Virus record (IMG/VR): IMGVR_UViG_3300042938_002066
Coordinates: 1 to 34,133 of that record
Source of the DNA: a virus
Length of the DNA stretch: 34,133 nucleotides
Reading direction: 5' to 3' (one strand)
Part shown: positions 5,194 to 28,039 of the stretch, piece by piece
Layout: each line of letters opens with the position of its first letter
How positions within the stretch are numbered: position 1 is the stretch's first letter
Made by a program: the position numbers and the translations under genes
Notes under the pieces: generated by a model
What the model saw: only the letters and a program-made list of their open reading frames with translations
Told to the model about the DNA's origin: nothing
Database searches by the model: none

Positions 5194-5670
5194 CTAAAGC
5201 TCGCCACCCTTCGGGCGCGCCGTGATCACCAGCAGCTGCGTGCGGCCGGGATACCACCAAGATGGAAAATCCTTCGGCCACTGTGCACGCAGCCCGTGTT
5301 GCCATGCCCAACGCTCGATAGAAGCAGCCGAGTGTTCTGCCAAGGTCGTGTCATAAAGGTGAGCCGCAACGGCGGCAGCTCGTTTGTCTGGATATCGAAA
5401 CCAGTATGGCTTTGTCAAAAAACCGGGCCAGTCGTCGATCTGCGGTGAAGTGCGCCATTTCTCACGCTCTAGCACTTTGACAGGAAACCATTTATCGGTG
5501 GGAATCCAGTTGTTCTTAATCGCAAACCTCGCTCTCATTGCTCGCCGCAATTGCGCGCGGGTGTGAGCCAGATCAAGTTCAATGCCGGCAGCAGTGGGAC
5601 CTTCAATCGTCTGGACAATCATTTTAGCCAACTGATCCGCAGACAAATCCCCTATCAAAATCTCAACCAT
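5194..5670 (-). CDS. Unknown protein encoded between integrase and attP
   Basis: 158 aa. The ATG lies inside the last codons of the integrase gene (8-nt overlap), with an AAGGA site just upstream, so it is translationally coupled to integrase. I do not recognise the family. The C-terminal half is rich in aromatic residues ('WFPVKV', 'WPGFLTKPYWFRYP', 'WAWQHGL', 'FPSWWYPGR'), and no TM segment or catalytic motif is apparent. Base composition is visibly more A+T-rich than in neighbouring genes. A gene lodged between int and attP and compositionally distinct is a common position for prophage cargo (superinfection exclusion, defence, toxin). That role is only inferred here. Confidence 0.75.
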   Translation of the reverse strand: MVEILIGDLSADQLAKMIVQTIEGPTAAGIELDLAHTRAQLRRAMRARFAIKNNWIPTDKWFPVKVLEREKWRTSPQIDDWPGFLTKPYWFRYPDKRAAAVAAHLYDTTLAEHSAASIERWAWQHGLRAQWPKDFPSWWYPGRTQLLVITARPKGGEL

Positions 5671-6841
5671 TGCCGCCTTCCTTCTGCAGGCGCGCCGTGA
5701 AAGCTCGTTCGGCCTCGGCGCTGGTTCGGATCAGGTAGTGGCGATCCAGGATCGCCTGGACACTTTGGGCGGTGTGGCCGGTGATGCTGGCGATCGCAAG
5801 GGCATCGAGGCCGGCGGCTTTCAGGGCGGTGACGGCGGTGTGGCGAAGTTCCATCCAGCGAAGGGTGGTGCAGCTGGGCATGGCGGGGAGGTTCAGCTTG
5901 GTGTCGCCCTCGGCGGCCTTCTGGCGGATCTCGGCGAAGGTGTGCGTGAAGGTGAAGGGCTGCCAGGGGCGGCCGGTGCCTTCGTGGAGAAGCAGGTGCG
6001 TCAGGCTGGCCAGCTTGCTGGTGCGCTGGCGTTCCGCCTCCAGCCGCGCCACCAGCTCCGGCACCAGGTGCACTGGCAGGCTGACCTTGCGGCCGCGCTT
6101 GCGCTGGGTGAGCATGATGGCGCCCTGGGCGAGCTGGTAGGGGGCGAGGTTCAGGATGTCGGCTTGGCGCTGGCCGCACCAGAAGTTGAGGACCATGGCG
6201 GTGCCCTGGCTGTGCCAGCCCATCGCGTCGGCCGTGGCCACCAGGTGATCAAGCTGCAGGCGGGTCCATAGGACCGGCTCGCGCTGGCGTTCCACGCTGA
6301 TGCCGGCGCGCAAGGCGGGGTTGATCGGCACGAAACCCAGGCGCACGCCGGCGGACATCAGGGCGGAGAGCACGCGCACGGCGGCGGCGGCGCGGGCGGG
6401 TGTTTCGATGATGCGGCGCTGCCGCCCCTTGCCTTCGGTGCGGCGGGCCATGGCATCGTGGAAGGCCTGCACGGCGCGGGGCGTGATGGCGCGGGCGGGC
6501 TGGTCGCCGGCCCAGTCGGCGATCTTGTCCAGGTAGAGGCCGTAATCCTTGCGGGTGCGCGCGCCCTTGGGCCACCACTTGCTGGCCTTGTAAGCCGCAA
6601 TCATGGCCAGCACGCTGCCGGCCGGTGCCTTGGCGGCCTTGCCGGTGGGCAACTGGGCGCGCCTGGCATCGACCTCGGCGTTGAGCTCCTCGGCCACCTT
6701 CATCGCCTCGGCCTGGGTGCTGACCAGCAGGCGCTGCGGGTTCCAGCCGGCGGCGCGCAGCTTGGCGGAGGGCTGCCAATACCAGCGCGGGCCGTGCGCG
6801 CCGGGCTTCTCGACCAAGTGCCGTATGGTGTGGCGCGACAT
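5663..6841 (-). CDS. int: Tyrosine recombinase integrase
   Basis: 392 aa. The start at 6841 was chosen because a strong GAGGAGG lies just upstream. An N-terminal arm-binding and core-binding region (to about residue 180) precedes the catalytic domain. Visible active-site residues are Arg225 ('CGQRQADIL'), Lys248 ('QRKRGRK'), Arg333 ('ELRHT'), His356 ('ITGHT') and nucleophile Tyr369 ('DRHYL'). The first His of the usual HxxR motif is replaced by Met330, a tolerated variation. It catalyses site-specific integration and excision, here presumably at the tRNA-Thr-derived attP near 5057-5102. It is co-transcribed with the Xis-like gene upstream and the unknown gene downstream. Confidence 0.95.
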   Translation of the reverse strand: MSRHTIRHLVEKPGAHGPRWYWQPSAKLRAAGWNPQRLLVSTQAEAMKVAEELNAEVDARRAQLPTGKAAKAPAGSVLAMIAAYKASKWWPKGARTRKDYGLYLDKIADWAGDQPARAITPRAVQAFHDAMARRTEGKGRQRRIIETPARAAAAVRVLSALMSAGVRLGFVPINPALRAGISVERQREPVLWTRLQLDHLVATADAMGWHSQGTAMVLNFWCGQRQADILNLAPYQLAQGAIMLTQRKRGRKVSLPVHLVPELVARLEAERQRTSKLASLTHLLLHEGTGRPWQPFTFTHTFAEIRQKAAEGDTKLNLPAMPSCTTLRWMELRHTAVTALKAAGLDALAIASITGHTAQSVQAILDRHYLIRTSAEAERAFTARLQKEGGNG

Positions 6842-6852
6842 GGTTTCCTCCT

Positions 6853-7137
6853 CTACCCCGCCGCCATCGCCTGGGCGCGGCCCAGGAGGATGGCTTCGCA
6901 GGCGGCCACGTCTGCCTCCAGCGCCGGGTTTGTTGGCGCAGAGGGGCGGCCATCGATCCAGGCTAGCACCGCGGCGCGGCTGTAGCGACGGCCGCCGCTG
7001 CAAGGAATGGCGGCCGGGAAACCGTGGTGCAGGCGCATTTTGCCGATGCAATCAACCAGGGTCGCCGGGCTGATGCCCAGCAGCTCGGCCACCTTGGCGC
7101 GGGTGATGACGGGGGTGATGACGGGGGCTTCAGCCAT
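6853..7137 (-). CDS. xis: AlpA/excisionase-like helix-turn-helix protein
   Basis: 94 aa. It has a MerR/AlpA-like winged helix-turn-helix: 'TRAKVAELLGISPATLVDCIGKM', then 'FPAAIPCSGGRRYSRAAVLAWIDG'. The 'G-R-R-Y-S-R-A-A-V-L-A-W' end is typical of AlpA/Xis proteins that specify and bend DNA at attachment sites. The ATG overlaps the stop of the upstream gene, and its own TAG stop lies in the ribosome-binding region of int, so expression is tightly linked to integrase. It is most likely the excisionase; a transcriptional activator of int is the alternative. Confidence 0.75.
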   Translation of the reverse strand: MAEAPVITPVITRAKVAELLGISPATLVDCIGKMRLHHGFPAAIPCSGGRRYSRAAVLAWIDGRPSAPTNPALEADVAACEAILLGRAQAMAAG

Positions 7138-7737: not shown

Positions 7738-8025
7738 CAGAAACTGTATTCGTTCGGCACGCGCCGCTGCTTCCGCTTCGGCTTCGGCCTTCTCGTGCTG
7801 CAGCGCAGCGCCCCAGCGTTTCAGTAAGCTGCGACGGCCCCACCAACGAGCGGCAAACAACGCCATGGCTATGGCAAAGAAAAAGAAAGCTGCAAAGCGA
7901 TCACCGCCCAATAGCGCCAGCAACGTGGACAGCGCCAGAAAAGCCACCGCCATATAGTCTGGCGGCTGAATGTGGCGGTATCGCTCTAAATCTTCCTCTA
8001 GTTTGGCCGCTGGCTCATGGAACAT
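7723..8025 (-). CDS. Two-TM membrane protein linked to the repressor gene
   Basis: 100 aa. I chose the ATG at 8025, which overlaps the repressor stop as TGATG; a GTG lies one codon earlier. The N-terminal part is acidic ('AAKLEEDLERYRH'). Two hydrophobic segments (about 24-41, 'DYMAVAFLALSTLLALLGG', and about 44-60, 'FAAFFFFAIAMALFAARWW') are followed by a basic, then Ala/Glu-rich cytoplasmic helix. Because it is translated with the repressor it is probably made in the lysogen, which fits a superinfection-exclusion or immunity accessory protein. That role is inferred; no family is recognised. Confidence 0.7.
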   Translation of the reverse strand: MFHEPAAKLEEDLERYRHIQPPDYMAVAFLALSTLLALLGGDRFAAFFFFAIAMALFAARWWGRRSLLKRWGAALQHEKAEAEAEAAARAERIQFLRQES

Positions 8026-8459
8026 CACTGTTCCTGCTGCGGCGCATGCAGCGTTACACGCCGCCTGCGGGTGGGCACGCTGGCTACCGGCCGCTGTGCA
8101 GCAACCCCTGCGCGCCGTTCAACCTGCATCGGCGATTCCGGGGCCGGTCGACCTACCGTGGCGCCTAGATTGCCGGCGGCGCGCGCGAGCCGGTCCGCCA
8201 GGTCGTAATCGACGTGGCGCAGCTGGCCCAGGAAGATCCACTCCAGCGGGATGCCGAGCCAGGTAAAGAGCCGCACCATGGCGCGCACGTCGGGCAGACG
8301 CCCGGCCTCCCAGTTGGCCAGCGCGGTGCGGGTGATGCCAAGCTCGGCGGCGAACGTCTCCTGTTTGATGACGCCGCGCTCGTCCCACACCTCGCGCACC
8401 GCCCGAAGGCGCAGGCCGGCCATGCGGTCGATATCGGATGCGGGCGGCTTCTTCGGCAT
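8025..8459 (-). CDS. CI-like HTH repressor, no peptidase domain
   Basis: 144 aa from the ATG at 8459; a GTG further upstream at 8507 would run through the inverted repeat at 8468-8491 and is less likely. An XRE-type helix-turn-helix spans about residues 15-70: 'RLRAVREVWDERGVIKQETFAAELGITRTALANWEAGR', then 'PDVRAMVRLFTWLGIPLEWIFLG'. The C-terminal half is Arg/Pro-rich, with no LexA/S24 Ser-Lys protease signature, so RecA-stimulated self-cleavage is not expected. Divergent from a Cro-like gene, it is the probable lysogeny repressor. Induction must use another route, such as an antirepressor or partner. Confidence 0.8.
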   Translation of the reverse strand: MPKKPPASDIDRMAGLRLRAVREVWDERGVIKQETFAAELGITRTALANWEAGRLPDVRAMVRLFTWLGIPLEWIFLGQLRHVDYDLADRLARAAGNLGATVGRPAPESPMQVERRAGVAAQRPVASVPTRRRRVTLHAPQQEQ

Positions 8460-8467
8460 CTGTGGAA

Positions 8468-8491
8468 ACTTGACCGCCCCGGCAGTCAAGT
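8468..8491. promoter_or_regulatory. Inverted repeat between repressor and cro-like gene (candidate operator)
   Basis: Perfect 7-bp arms ACTTGAC and GTCAAGT with a 10-bp spacer, immediately upstream of the repressor start. A third TTGAC half-site lies at 8529-8533 just before the cro-like start. I could not identify a convincing -10 element in either direction. Confidence 0.45.
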
Positions 8492-8535
8492 CACGCCACC
8501 GCTGCACGGCTGTTTTGTGTCATGGGAGTTGACAT

Positions 8536-17202: not shown

Positions 17203-18156
17203 ATGAGCATCCCGTTCAACGATTGGGGCGCGCTGGGCCTCGCTGGCGCCCGCAAACTCACCACCTTCACCGCCAACGGCACCTACGCCCGCAACTCGTA
17301 TGCCCGCTTCGTTTCCATGCTCGTCGTTGGTGGCGGCGGTGGTGGTGGCTTTGGAGGCACCTACGCTGCTGTAGGCGGCGGGTCTGGCGGGGGCGGTGGT
17401 GGTGGTGCCGGCTGGATGTACGCTGTGGTTCGGGCGTCAGATGTTGGCGCCACAGAAACCATCACCGTTGGTGTTGGTGGTAGCGCAGGAACATCAGGAT
17501 CGCCAACTGGCGGCAGAGGTGGCACTTCAAGTTTCGGCACAAAATTCTACGGCGGCGGTGCTGGCGGTGGTGCTTCAGGAGGGGCGGCGGTCGCATCGGG
17601 TGGTGGTGGTGGCGGTACCAACTACAATGTACAAGCAGGTTCAGGAACCAATTTAGTAGGCGGCAACGGCATGAACTTTGCCCCAGATGGTTCTTTTGGG
17701 GGCTCAGGCTTAGGAACAAACACTTTATTTCTTGGCGGTAGTGGTGCAGGATCATCAGCCGTAGGAGTTTCGGGGCAAGGTGGTGGCGCCCTCATAGGAC
17801 CTGCTGCTGGAGGTGCTGGCGGCGGGTTTAACTCGGCAGGAACAACAGCACAGCCGGGCAATTTTGGAGGTGGGGCTAACTACAATGGAGGCAGCAATTT
17901 TGCAGTTGGAGGCGCAGCCGGTGCGCCTGGACAATCAGGCGCAGCGCCCACGTTGACATATCTTTCTACCACTGCGCCTGCGGCGGGCGGGGCTGGAGGA
18001 GGCGGCGGCCTTAGCGCAAATGGTGGCGCAGGCGGCGCGGGTGCAAACTATGGCGCCGGCGGTGGCGGTGGCGGCGCAGGTAACAGCACCAACAGCTTTG
18101 TTGGTGGCGTCGGCGGCGCAGGCGCGCCGGGCGTCGTCATCATCATGGAGTGGTGA
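17203..18156 (+). CDS. Glycine-rich adhesin-like protein
   Basis: 317 aa. A short N-terminal domain ('KLTTFTANGTYARNSYARFVSMLVVGGGGGGG') leads into about 260 residues of Gly-rich sequence with Ser, Ala, Asn and Thr, ending in a hydrophobic strand ('GAPGVVIIMEW'). This is the pattern of glycine-rich domains that pack as polyglycine-II bundles in phage receptor-binding adhesins. From about 17450 the DNA is clearly richer in A/T and in GGT/GGA/TCA codons than neighbouring genes, suggesting separate ancestry. Its site between terminase and portal is odd for a tail tip gene. A host-recognition role is inferred. Confidence 0.7.
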   Translation: MSIPFNDWGALGLAGARKLTTFTANGTYARNSYARFVSMLVVGGGGGGGFGGTYAAVGGGSGGGGGGGAGWMYAVVRASDVGATETITVGVGGSAGTSGSPTGGRGGTSSFGTKFYGGGAGGGASGGAAVASGGGGGGTNYNVQAGSGTNLVGGNGMNFAPDGSFGGSGLGTNTLFLGGSGAGSSAVGVSGQGGGALIGPAAGGAGGGFNSAGTTAQPGNFGGGANYNGGSNFAVGGAAGAPGQSGAAPTLTYLSTTAPAAGGAGGGGGLSANGGAGGAGANYGAGGGGGGAGNSTNSFVGGVGGAGAPGVVIIMEW

Positions 18157-23000: not shown

Positions 23001-23888
23001 ATGTCCATCGAAGTTTCCACCTCGTTCGTCCAGCAATTCCGTTCCAACCTCGTGATGCTGGCGCAGCAGATGCCCAGCCGCTTGGAAAGCACGATCTATG
23101 CTGAGCCCGTCACCGGCACCACCGCCTGGTATGACCAGATCGGCACCGCCACGGCGCAGCGCATCATCAACCGCCACGCCGACACCCCCATTGCCAACAT
23201 CCAGCACCGCCGCCGCCGCATCGACGTACTCAGCTACAACGTGGCCGAGCTGATCGACGGCGCCGACCGCGTGCGCATGCTGGCCGATCCCTCCAGCGCC
23301 TACGCCCAGGCCCTGGTGGCGGCGATGAACCGCCAGAAGGATGATTTGATCATCGCGCAGTTCTTCGCCTCGGCGAACACCGGCGCCGATGGCACCACCG
23401 CGGTGACCTTCCCCGCCGCCAACCAGGTGGCGGTGAACAGCTGGAAGTATGGTTCCGGCTCCGGCAACGCCGGCCTCACCATCTCCAAGCTGATCGAGGC
23501 CAAGGCCCTGCTGGATGCCGGCGAGGTGGAGGAGACGGAGCGCTACATCGCCGTTTCCGCCAAGCAGCTGGCGGACCTGCTGGGCACCACCGAAGTCACC
23601 AGCAGCGACTTCAACGCGGTGCAGGCCCTGGTCTCTGGCCAGATCAGCACCTTCCTGGGTTTCAACTTCATCCGCTCGGAGCGCCTGCCCATCGATGGCT
23701 CCAGCTACCGCCGCGTGGCCGCGTGGCAGAAAATGGGCATGTACCTGGGCAAGAGCCAGGACATCATCGCCGACCTTGGCCCGCGGCGAGACAAGAACAA
23801 CGCTATGCAGGCCTACTACGAAATGACCATGGGCTGCGCCCGCGTGGAAGAAGCCCGCGTCATCGAGATCAAGTGCCTGGAGAGCTGA
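23001..23888 (+). CDS. Major capsid protein
   Basis: 295 aa; GGGAG lies 8 nt upstream of the ATG. 'FVQQFRSNLVMLAQQMPSRLESTIY', 'TAWYDQIGTATAQ', 'RRRRIDVLSYNVAELIDGAD' and 'YAQALVAAMNRQKDDLIIAQFFASANTG' match the HK97-fold capsid proteins of the BPP-1/epsilon15 group; the end ('LGPRRDKNNAMQAYYEMTMGCARVEEARVIEIKC') is characteristic of them. It follows the scaffold gene and precedes a decoration-protein gene. It forms the icosahedral shell. It is bounded by non-coding gaps on both sides, so its expression may be set separately from its neighbours. Confidence 0.9.
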   Translation: MSIEVSTSFVQQFRSNLVMLAQQMPSRLESTIYAEPVTGTTAWYDQIGTATAQRIINRHADTPIANIQHRRRRIDVLSYNVAELIDGADRVRMLADPSSAYAQALVAAMNRQKDDLIIAQFFASANTGADGTTAVTFPAANQVAVNSWKYGSGSGNAGLTISKLIEAKALLDAGEVEETERYIAVSAKQLADLLGTTEVTSSDFNAVQALVSGQISTFLGFNFIRSERLPIDGSSYRRVAAWQKMGMYLGKSQDIIADLGPRRDKNNAMQAYYEMTMGCARVEEARVIEIKCLES

Positions 23889-23981: not shown

Positions 23982-24479
23982 ATGCCTGTCTTCAACCTCA
24001 ATTCCACCTCCATCACCAACCGCAACGCCTCGCCGCCGGTGAACACGGCGATGTATCTCTCGGCCGGCACCGTCAAGCGCGCGCTGGCCACGTTCGAGTG
24101 CACCAGCAGCGACAGCATCAGCAGCACCTATCGCATCTGCGAGCTGCCGCGGAACGCCTGCATCAACTCCATCCGCGTGTTCTGCGATGCAATCACCAGC
24201 GCCGCGGGCGACCTCGGCCTGTACCAGACCACGGCCAATGGCGCCGCGGTCAAGGCGGTGTCCTGCTACGCCACGGCGCAGTCGATCGCCACCGCCATCA
24301 CGTTGGGCACCGAGATCGCCTTCGAGGCCCGCGACATCGCCAACCTGCAGCGCCGCGTGTGGGAAGATGCCGGCGACACCAGCGACCCCGGCCGCAACTA
24401 CGACCTGGTGTTCACCCTCACCGCCGCCAGCACCGCCGCCGGCACGCTGTCGTTCATGGTGGAGTGGACGGAGCTTTAG
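23982..24479 (+). CDS. Capsid decoration / cementing protein (Bbp16-like)
   Basis: 165 aa; AGGAGG is 6 nt upstream of the ATG. It begins 'PVFNLNSTSITNRNASPP' and is beta-rich throughout ('RALATFECTSSDSISSTYRICELPRNACINSIRVFCDAI', 'AGTLSFMVEWTEL'), the pattern of the jelly-roll-like cement protein that trimerises on BPP-1-type capsids. Its position immediately after the capsid gene supports this. It would stabilise the shell against packaged DNA. It ends with TAG. Good confidence as a virion protein; family from memory. Confidence 0.75.
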   Translation: MPVFNLNSTSITNRNASPPVNTAMYLSAGTVKRALATFECTSSDSISSTYRICELPRNACINSIRVFCDAITSAAGDLGLYQTTANGAAVKAVSCYATAQSIATAITLGTEIAFEARDIANLQRRVWEDAGDTSDPGRNYDLVFTLTAASTAAGTLSFMVEWTEL

Positions 24480-24609: not shown

Positions 24610-25188
24610 ATGGCCGCAGTCAGCCTGACCAACGTCGCCAACATGGCCATGGCGCTGATCGGCCAGGAACGCATCGCGCGCCTGGACGACAGCTCCAAGC
24701 CGGCGCGGCTGGCCAATGAATTCCTGCCGCAAGTGCGCGATGCCTGCCTGGTGCGCCACCCCTGGAATTTCGCCATCGCCCGCGCCAGCCTGCCAGCCCT
24801 GGCCACCGCGCCCGCCTTCGGCTTCAGCCGCGCCTTCGAACGCCCAGCCGATTGCCTGCGCGTGCTCACCCTGAACGGCGCCGACCCGCACGAGCCGTTC
24901 CAGATCGAGGGCAGCTCGATCCTTTGCAGCCTCGAAGCCCCGCTGGGTATCCGCTACATCCGCCAAGTGGCCGACGCCGGCAGCTGGTCCCCGCTCTTCG
25001 TGGACCTGGTGGCCGCCGAGCTGGCGCGCCGCCTGTGCATTCCGCTGAGCGCCGACAAATCCCAGCACGCCCAGCTGATGCAGATGATCGAGCAGCTGGA
25101 ACGGCGCGCCCGCAGCACCGACGCGGCCGAGGGCACGCCGATGCCGGCCATCCTGCCAGCCGACGACCTGATCCTGGCCCGGTTGTAG
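24610..25188 (+). CDS. Tail adaptor (T7 gp11 / tail tubular A-like)
   Basis: 192 aa, near T7 gp11 (196 aa). An AGGA site lies 6 nt before the ATG. 'NVANMAMALIGQERIARLDDSSKPARLANEFLPQVRDACLVRHPWNFA' and 'FSRAFERPADCLRVLTLNG' are the family signature, followed by 'IRYIRQV' and 'FVDLVAAELARRLCIPLSADKS'. It forms the ring that joins portal to nozzle in short tails. The TAG stop overlaps the GTG start of the next gene by one base. Confidence 0.9.
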   Translation: MAAVSLTNVANMAMALIGQERIARLDDSSKPARLANEFLPQVRDACLVRHPWNFAIARASLPALATAPAFGFSRAFERPADCLRVLTLNGADPHEPFQIEGSSILCSLEAPLGIRYIRQVADAGSWSPLFVDLVAAELARRLCIPLSADKSQHAQLMQMIEQLERRARSTDAAEGTPMPAILPADDLILARL

Positions 25189-25826
25189 TGCCCACCACCT
25201 ATCAGGCCTCGTTCGCCGCCGGCATCCTCTCTCCCCGCCTACGCGGGCGAATCGATCTGGCTCAATACGCGGCTGGCGCGGAAGACCTCACCAACATGGT
25301 GGTGCTGCTGGGTGGCGGCGCCACGCGGCGCCAGGGCAGCTACCGCGTGGCGGCCCCCAAGCCCGGCGGGCGCGTGCGCCTGGTGCCGTGGCGCATTGCC
25401 AGCGATGTCACCTACCTGCTGGAATTCGGCGCCAGCTACATCCGCTTTTTCCGCGATCGCGGGCAGCTCACCAACAGCGCCGCCGCCGTGCTGGAAGTCG
25501 CCACGCCCTACACGCTGGACCAGCTGCGCGAGCTGTCCTTCACCGCCAGCGCCGATGTGCTCTACATCCTGCACGGCAGCCACCAGCCGCGGAAGCTGAG
25601 CCGCACCGCCAGCGATACATTCAGCCTCGCGCTGGTGGCTTTCGCCGATGGCCCCTACGACACCGAGAACACCGGCAACACGGGCGCGGCCAGCCCCGCC
25701 CCCACCGTGACCGCTCCCGAAGGCGGCACCATTGTGCCCGATGCCGGCGCCGGCAGCGGCGCCATCTGGGGTGGCGATGCCACCGGGGGCGAGGCTGAAG
25801 GCGGCAACGGCGGGGGCGAGGGCTAG
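25188..25826 (+). CDS. Tail nozzle (T7 gp12-like) N-terminal portion, ends at in-frame amber
   Basis: 212 aa from the GTG at 25188, which overlaps the adaptor stop. 'TTYQASFAAGILSPRLRGRIDLAQYAAGAEDLTNMVVLLGGGATRRQGSYRV', 'RVRLVPWRIASDVTYLLEFG' and 'VATPYTLDQLRELSFTASADVLYILHGSHQPRKLSR' form the N-terminal domain of nozzle proteins. The last 45 residues are Gly/Ala/Thr-rich low complexity. The TAG at 25824-25826 is followed in the same frame, one codon later, by the GTG of the C-terminal portion. A fused product would be about 800 aa, the size of T7 gp12 (794 aa). TAG is a normal stop elsewhere here (4742, 17193, 24479, 25188). Confidence 0.85.
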   Translation: MPTTYQASFAAGILSPRLRGRIDLAQYAAGAEDLTNMVVLLGGGATRRQGSYRVAAPKPGGRVRLVPWRIASDVTYLLEFGASYIRFFRDRGQLTNSAAAVLEVATPYTLDQLRELSFTASADVLYILHGSHQPRKLSRTASDTFSLALVAFADGPYDTENTGNTGAASPAPTVTAPEGGTIVPDAGAGSGAIWGGDATGGEAEGGNGGGEG

Positions 25827-25829
25827 CCC

Positions 25830-27590
25830 GTGGCCGACACAAACATCACCCTCACGCCCAGTGTGGCGCACACCAGCGGCGCCGCCACCGTCACGGCCAG
25901 CGCCGCCCTGTTTACGCCGGATGATGTGGGCCGCCTGATCTCGATCCTGCAGGCCTGCAACACCACCCGCGCCGCCGCCACCGCCTACAGCGGCGGGCGC
26001 ATCCTGGTCTCGGAATACAACCAGGTGCCGCGCCTCTATCGCGTCATCACCGGCGGCACCACCGCGGCGGCCATCCTAGCCGGCACAACGCCCAACTACG
26101 ACCTAGCCGCCCCAAACGACACCGGGCTGACGGTGCAAGATGGCACCGCCGTGCTGCGCTACCTCGGCCCCGGCCGGCACGTGTGGGGCTGGGCGCTGAT
26201 CACCGGCTTCACCAGTGCTACCGTGGTGGCGGTGAGTGTGGAGCCGCGCGGCGTGTTTGCCGCTACCACGGCAAGCCTGCGCTGGCGCCTGGGCGAATTC
26301 TCCAACACCCGCGGCTGGCCGCGCAGCGCCACCTTCCACAAAGGCCGGTTCTGGCTGGGCGGCAGCAGCACCCGCCCGCAAAGCCTGTGGGCCAGCCAGT
26401 CCAACGATTTCGAGAACTTCGCCCCCACGGAGCCCGACGGTTCCGTGTTCGACACCAACGCCATCAGCATCGCGCTGGATGCCGATACCGTGCAGGCGGT
26501 GCGCTGGCTGGCCAGCGTGCCGCGTGGCCTGGCCGTGGGCACCAGTAGCGGGGAATGGCTGGTGGCGCCGGCCAACCGCAACAACGCCATCAGCCCCAGC
26601 AACATCACCGCCGACCCGCACGGCAGCCGCGGCACCGGCAGTGGCGCCAACCCGCAGCGCGTCAGTGGACCCGTGCTGTTCCCCCAGCGCGGCGGCCGGC
26701 GCCTGCGCCAACTCGAATACGACTACGCCACCGACCGCTTCACCACCGCCGACCTCACCACCCTGGCCGATAACATCGCCGGCGCCGGCTTCCTGGAAAC
26801 CGCCTACGCCGACACGCCCGACGGCGTGTTCTACGGCCTTCGCACCGACGGCAAGATCGCCTGCCTGACCTTCGACACCGACCAGAAGCTGCGCGCCTGG
26901 AGCCTGTGGGAAATGACCGGCGGCACGGTGGAAAGCATCGCCGCGGTGCCAGACCCGAATGGCACCGGCACCGACCTCTGGTGCAGCGTGGTCCGCACCG
27001 TGGCCGGCGCTGAGCAGCGCAGCATCGAATTCATCCGCTCCCCGTTTCGCGCCGAGCTGGAGGATGCAACCGACGCCTTCATGCTCGACAGCGGCCTGAC
27101 CTATGCCGGCACCCCCGTCATCAGCGTTACCGGCCTGTCTCATTTGGACGGGCAAACCGTGCAGGTGGTGGCAGATGGCTCCCGCCGGGATAACCAGGTG
27201 GTGGCCAGCGGCGTGGTGGCCATCACCGGCCCGGCCGCCAGCACGGTGCATGTGGGCCTGCCCTACCGGCACCGCATCGTTGACCTGCCACCCGGCGGCG
27301 TGCTGCCCAACGGCGCCCCGCTGCGCACCCTGACGCTGCGCGTGGTCAAAGCACACCTCACCCTGATGGACAGCTTGGGCGGGCGCGTGGGCGGCGCGGA
27401 CGACCAAGGCGAAGACCTCGCCTTCCGCACCATCGACATGGCGATGGGCGAGGCCGTGCCGCTGTTCACCGGGGAACGCAGCGTGACCACTTTCGGCAGC
27501 TGGGGCAGCAAAGGCCAGGTGGAGATCATCGGCGACGACCCGTTCCCGTTCACCCTGCTGGCGATCACCAAGGAGATTTCCGCGTCGTGA
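25830..27590 (+). CDS. Tail nozzle (T7 gp12-like) C-terminal portion
   Basis: 586 aa from a GTG at 25830, in the same frame as the preceding ORF and one sense codon after its TAG. GAGGG (25818-25822) lies 7 nt upstream, so independent initiation or reinitiation is possible. It opens with 'NITLTPSVAHTSGAATVTASAALFTPDDVGRLISI', a segment found in the middle of full-length nozzle proteins, then 'LRWRLGEFSNTRGWPRSATFHKGRFWLGGSSTRPQSLWASQSNDFENF' and 'RRLRQLEYDYATDRFTTADLTTLADNI', both typical. It forms the tail tube tip that contacts the tailspike and gates ejection. The stop overlaps the next start (GTGA). Confidence 0.88.
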   Translation: MADTNITLTPSVAHTSGAATVTASAALFTPDDVGRLISILQACNTTRAAATAYSGGRILVSEYNQVPRLYRVITGGTTAAAILAGTTPNYDLAAPNDTGLTVQDGTAVLRYLGPGRHVWGWALITGFTSATVVAVSVEPRGVFAATTASLRWRLGEFSNTRGWPRSATFHKGRFWLGGSSTRPQSLWASQSNDFENFAPTEPDGSVFDTNAISIALDADTVQAVRWLASVPRGLAVGTSSGEWLVAPANRNNAISPSNITADPHGSRGTGSGANPQRVSGPVLFPQRGGRRLRQLEYDYATDRFTTADLTTLADNIAGAGFLETAYADTPDGVFYGLRTDGKIACLTFDTDQKLRAWSLWEMTGGTVESIAAVPDPNGTGTDLWCSVVRTVAGAEQRSIEFIRSPFRAELEDATDAFMLDSGLTYAGTPVISVTGLSHLDGQTVQVVADGSRRDNQVVASGVVAITGPAASTVHVGLPYRHRIVDLPPGGVLPNGAPLRTLTLRVVKAHLTLMDSLGGRVGGADDQGEDLAFRTIDMAMGEAVPLFTGERSVTTFGSWGSKGQVEIIGDDPFPFTLLAITKEISAS

Positions 27591-28039
27591 TAGTCAGGGA
27601 GTTCCAGCCGCTCGACCTGCACCGGATCGTCGTGGCCAGGGTGGCCGTGCCGGGCTGGCGCAACCACGGCGCAAAACTGCTGGCCAGCGGTCCGTGCTGG
27701 TCCGCGGTGCATGACGGCGAGGTGATCGCCTGCGCCGGGCTGGCATTGCACTGGCCCGGCCGCGCCGGCGCCTGGTGCCTGATCGGCGCGCGGTTTCCCC
27801 GCAGCGGCTGGATATGGCTGCACCGCCAGGTGTCGCAGGGATTGATCAAGGCAACCGCCGACCTCCGGCTGCGCCGCATCGAAGCGGAAGCTGCCTATGG
27901 CTGGCCGCCCGGCGCCCGCTGGCTGGGCATGCTGGGCTTCGAACGAGAGGGCGTGATGCGCGCCTTCGGCCATGGCGGCGAAGATTTCGAACGCTGGGCA
28001 CGCATCGCCGATGCAGCCGCAACAGAGGCGCATAGCTGA
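27587..28039 (+). CDS. gp13-like (DUF2833) virion-associated protein
   Basis: 150 aa from a GTG overlapping the nozzle stop; AAGGAG lies about 11 nt upstream. 'MIVREFQPLDLHRIVVARV', 'VIACAGLALHWPGRAGAWCLIG', 'LRRIEAEAAYGWPPGARWLGMLGFEREGVMRAFGHGGEDFERWARI' follow the GNAT-like fold of T7 gp13/DUF2833 proteins, including the late 'LGFEREG' segment. In T7 this protein is needed for making infectious particles. Gene order nozzle, gp13, gp14, gp15, gp16 is kept here, which supports the call. No acetyltransferase activity is implied. Confidence 0.75.
   Translation: MIVREFQPLDLHRIVVARVAVPGWRNHGAKLLASGPCWSAVHDGEVIACAGLALHWPGRAGAWCLIGARFPRSGWIWLHRQVSQGLIKATADLRLRRIEAEAAYGWPPGARWLGMLGFEREGVMRAFGHGGEDFERWARIADAAATEAHS

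Follow-up and report, generated by a model that had tools for sequence, protein, structure and literature searches.

In most known relatives of the locus described here, the tail nozzle, through which DNA leaves the virus, is one protein. Nozzles of the T7 gp12 type (PHROG 376) sit in six copies on the adaptor ring, where they close the DNA channel. The propellers of the T7 nozzle form the narrowest gate that retains the DNA within the virion, and opening of this gate requires movement of whole protomers (PMC6702177). Within the T7 protein, the platform barrel draws three of its strands from the first 45 residues, and the chain later exits the propeller via a blade 3 loop into the tip domain (PMC6702177). 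T7 gp12 (PDB 6r21, 7ey7 and 9jyz) is the 794 aa product of one gene, unlike the pair reported below, and has the adaptor gene upstream. The best solved relative of the present locus, gp36 of the Cobetia phage Carin1 (PDB 8ck1), is likewise one gene and one chain of 830 aa, with a connector gene upstream and the same neighbours as found here. Salmonella phage epsilon15 and Burkholderia phage BcepC6B belong to the same family and share the gene order; gp12 of each is a single gene (825 and 768 aa, respectively). Carin1 gp36 and the gp12 proteins of epsilon15 and BcepC6B are all without the Gly-rich tail found in the present nozzle.

The window, that is, the whole stretch of DNA analysed, is a virus record of 34,133 bases in which the virion genes follow the order of epsilon15/T7-like podophages (Table 1). 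The nozzle is located directly after the adaptor gene, the GTG at 25188 that starts the N chain overlapping the TAG of the adaptor gene (25186–25188), and the same arrangement is seen in relatives. As in epsilon15, a GNAT-like (acetyltransferase-like) gene comes after the nozzle, and the internal virion proteins come after this gene. The small gene at 23982–24479 possibly encodes a head decoration protein. Because an integrase is present, the phage is probably temperate.

Table 1. Features of the window discussed in the text
Feature	Position	Strand	Description	Basis or remarks
Integrase	5663–7051	-		PHROG 1
Helix-turn-helix repressor-like frame	8025–8507	-		Judged by eye
Major capsid protein	23001–23888			PHROG 3437
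Small gene between capsid protein and adaptor	23982–24479			No PHROG match; conserved in all relatives
Head-tail adaptor (gp11-like)	24610..25188	+		PHROG 394, E 2e-44; conserved upstream neighbour
Nozzle N chain	25188..25826	+	212 aa, GTG start, TAG stop	PHROG 376 and 8ck1 matches
Gly-rich acidic C-terminal tail of N chain	25674..25823	+	Residues 163–212	Composition; pLDDT <50; partly conserved start
Putative ribosome-binding site of C chain	25811..25819	+	Inside N-chain tail codons	Duplex energy
TAG stop of N chain	25824–25826	+	In frame with C chain	Identical in L003 and L004
Nozzle C chain	25830..27590	+	586 aa, GTG start	PHROG 376 match; start aligned with relatives' ATG
Small GNAT-like gene	27587..28039	+		PHROG 4177; conserved downstream neighbour

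The frames of the N and C chains are identical, and TAG-CCC-GTG is the entire separator between them, as the initial annotation had described; from GTG 25830 the C chain runs 586 codons to a TGA at 27588–27590. The N chain matches positions 7–169 of the 712 of PHROG 376 (E 1e-52) and the C chain positions 163–708 (E 3e-120). These matches adjoin, overlapping by a few positions, and since they tile the family the two chains together make up one full-length nozzle, which agrees with the initial estimate of about 800 aa for the pair. By sequence, the N chain also matches residues 13–170 of 8ck1 (E 1e-23), and the joined protein matches Carin1 gp36 with an E of 1e-69. A Pfam search gave no match at threshold. 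Alignment to a single T7 gp12 sequence shows very little similarity (136 columns at an hhalign probability of 61 %), and folds were therefore compared. An AlphaFold model of the joined sequence, with the TAG read as Q and an alignment of 23 rows, is of middling quality (pLDDT 68, pTM 0.65); it matches the Carin1 nozzle 8ck1 with a VIA Z of 31 over 580 residues and the T7 gp12 nozzles with a VIA Z of 19–20, the overall fold being the same. By these matches the joined model fits the nozzle fold of seven-bladed propeller, tip, dock and platform, with domain borders drawn by analogy with T7. Thus, the first assignment of the locus to a T7 gp12-like nozzle holds both by family and by fold.

The same TAG, within a junction without differences, is present in two other IMG/VR contigs, 3300035682 (2 SNPs relative to the window in 6708 nt, 99.97 % identical) and 3300034105 (5 SNPs in 4024 nt, 99.88 % identical). 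TAG also normally ends the adaptor gene and the gene at 23982–24479, and no tRNA gene was found in a search of the window. Phages that recode TAG read it as an amino acid within genes and often carry a suppressor tRNA. Thus, sequencing error at the TAG is ruled out by three agreeing assemblies, and recoding of the TAG by its ordinary use elsewhere in the window together with the lack of a tRNA gene.

Relatives were gathered by scans with the N and C chains. Five further lineages encode a C chain 55–67 % identical to that of the window, and all five are split at the aligned place. In L137–L139 (three contigs) an ATGA overlap follows GGEGAS, while TGATG overlaps are found in L140, L136 and L155/L205 (three lineages). 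In L135 a gap of 111 nt (L135:3890–4000), in which two stops are in frame, lies between the genes, and AAGGAG is located 11 nt before the ATG. A small frame, about MGMIPISVLALFLRPGAVADQVARCGRARGAKERR, also occupies this gap and stops just short of the second start; it may encode a leader or have no significance. In four of the five further lineages the second gene is in a different frame from the first, L135 being the exception. Given that the junction DNA differs at the same place between relatives, what is conserved is the encoding of the nozzle by two genes, the second of which has a start of its own, and the shared frame of the two parts in the window is incidental. One polypeptide is usual in the nozzle family, without being strictly defining; all six lineages of this clade have two genes. 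Comparison with relatives had been proposed initially as a check on whether the TAG is conserved: it is kept in the two near-identical contigs, and in the five other lineages the gene is broken by other means.

These junctions bear on the two alternatives that the initial annotation had offered, readthrough or two separately started chains. Programmed readthrough of the TAG would yield, in addition to the short N chain, a certain amount of a fused nozzle of 800 aa, giving a mixed hexamer. The arrangement in the window, where one frame runs through both parts and only the stop and a single CCC codon intervene, is what such a mechanism would use. However, in no relative found would readthrough of one stop join the parts: the C chain is out of frame in four and is preceded by two stops in the fifth. 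Readthrough is thereby rejected as a conserved mechanism. The aligned start codon of every lineage, the normal use of TAG as a stop by other genes of the window and the lack of a tRNA gene also count against it, and programmed readthrough is considered very improbable. Some fused product could be made by minor readthrough in the window phage because its two parts share a frame, but none is needed. The alternative of two chains, with separate genes in five lineages and an aligned start, is the part of the initial proposal that has stood: it is very likely that the nozzle of this clade is two genes working as two chains. The nozzle is thus very probably built from two proteins, with the TAG as the ordinary end of the first gene.

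The start codon of the second gene is aligned in six of six lineages, GTG 25830 included, and the C chain opens M-[ATV]-D-T-x-I-T-L. The predicted ribosome site of GTG 25830, CGGGGGCGA, is located 10 nt upstream, among Gly/Glu codons of the tail. Its energy of -9.0 kcal/mol ranks near the 5th percentile for the ATG/GTG triplets in the window (triplet median -2.9 kcal/mol), in keeping with the good site described at first. Predicted sites at the C-chain start reach -9.3 kcal/mol in L137 and -7.7 kcal/mol in L135, and are only moderate in L136, L140 and L155 (-5.5 to -6.4 kcal/mol), which counts against the two-chain reading. Overlapping or near-touching stop and start codons are the usual layout for coupled translation, and the stop and start overlap or almost touch in five of the six lineages. 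The N chain of 212 aa would terminate at the TAG, and the C chain would be separately initiated at GTG 25830, aided by the ribosome site within the Gly-rich codons; coupling to the adjoining stop probably also helps initiation of the C chain.

One uninterrupted gene is present in the named phages above and at 162 more distant loci (loci with both parts readable, near-copies included), all 162 being without the tail. In unsplit loci of the same type, GPYxxEN passes into the TASAALF segment with no Gly-rich tail between them. Such intact genes would fit the window carrying a dead or damaged gene, or an error at the stop. However, three assemblies agree, and every near relative is split, with the start and the reading frames preserved over 60 % identity. 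Additionally, ratios of 0.04–0.17 for the N-chain core and 0.21–0.27 for the C chain in the L137 group indicate purifying selection on both chains, and damage or error is accordingly extremely unlikely. The initial suggestion that relatives might be intact and this gene a dead variant is ruled out within the near clade, intact genes being confined to distant relatives. In a tree of 30 nozzles the six split lineages group together as a single clade (100/100), no single-gene member of this clade was found, and gene order around the nozzle pair is kept in relatives. Two pattern scans of bacterial genomes, made with C-chain alignments and few patterns, returned no prophage with this nozzle, which is weak evidence of absence. 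On plasmids only distant relatives were found.

When solved single seven-bladed propellers are aligned with the joined model, they span roughly residues 46 to 620; this span is defined by the first and last aligned residues only and crosses the break. This is good, not residue-level, evidence that strands on either side of the break contribute to the propeller, in which case two polypeptides must be brought together to make the gate domain. By analogy with T7 gp12, platform-barrel strands and the first propeller blades would come from the N chain. The C chain would contribute the tip module and the remaining blades, together with the fibre dock and what is left of the platform. The two chains would then fold together and be interlocked in two domains. 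The break would lie in the loop where the chain passes from the propeller to the tip module, leaving a disordered, acidic, Gly-rich tail on the free end of the N chain; on Carin1 gp36 a break of this type would map near residues 170–185. We infer from this arrangement the co-assembly of both chains in the virion and the position of the tail.

The Gly-rich low-complexity insertion at which the split was first placed is confirmed as a tail of 50 residues (34 % Gly) with 6 acidic and 0 basic residues. Over the six lineages the tails are 40–78 aa long, with 28–45 % Gly, 6–14 acidic and 0–1 basic residues. Residues 164–216 of the joined model have pLDDT <50 and are predicted to be disordered, flanked by ordered parts. 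The window also encodes, among its virion genes, a 317-aa, very Gly-rich protein (17203–18156), whose codons are the one further place where the DNA weakly matches that of the nozzle tail; this match is composition-based.

Whether the break and tail bring any gain is a separate matter from whether the nozzle is split. The chances are about even that they are neutral, the loop having tolerated an insertion and a stop/start with no benefit. Tail length and sequence are highly variable among lineages, the loop is predicted to be disordered, and the split apparently arose twice (the second case is given below), all of which would fit neutrality. Against this, all six lineages have an acidic tail whose opening (ENTGDVGAA-PS) shows partial conservation, and no single-gene member of the clade was found. 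A functional break is possible but rather doubtful. In that case, the cut at the border of the tip module would make the distal tip less tightly joined to the propeller gate. Six disordered, Gly-rich tails of acidic character would lie near the channel exit and help closure or envelope contact, with CP2-like phages having independently done the same at the other border of the tip.

No earlier report of a split or two-chain nozzle was found in the open papers searched, an absence that is not proof. A second split is present in Xanthomonas phages. In Xanthomonas citri phage CP2 the nozzle is encoded by ORF19 (463 aa) and ORF20 (570 aa), which meet in a TAATG overlap (L213:4001–7104; AB720064.1 15292–18395), and Xanthomonas phage Olaya has the same two-gene nozzle (L222:986–4089; MW802488.1). 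There are ten CP2-like records in all, at least 96.8 % identical in ORF20, and the split was read in CP2 and Olaya. The nozzle ORFs of both phages are annotated only as hypothetical or tail proteins, and a term search of a paper on CP2-like phages brought up neither a nozzle nor a tail tubular protein. Pseudomonas phage UFJF_PfDIW6, annotated with a split tail tubular B gene (gp11/gp12; L215:1486–3955, NC_070881.1), was rejected as a third case; a near-copy of the same stretch appears to be read a second time, in a different frame, as its first gene, which points to a local duplication or assembly fault.

Pairs of nozzle genes are recorded as two unrelated proteins or may be mistaken for a broken gene, which is a warning for annotation. 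They also offer natural pieces for test-tube assembly of the nozzle and a natural experiment on the coupling of tip and gate. ORF19 of CP2 covers epsilon15 gp12 to approximately residue 305 and ORF20 covers the remainder, and the first chain again ends Gly-rich (GGGGGVNGSGGGS...). The tree joins CP2 to a Pseudomonas phage with an unsplit nozzle (99/99; both branches long), and for this reason the CP2 split is apparently independent of that in the window clade. That the gate is very probably cut into two chains throughout one clade, and apparently on two occasions, suggests that it tolerates a free chain end there, the break being at the exit of the tip module in CP2 and at its entry in the window clade.
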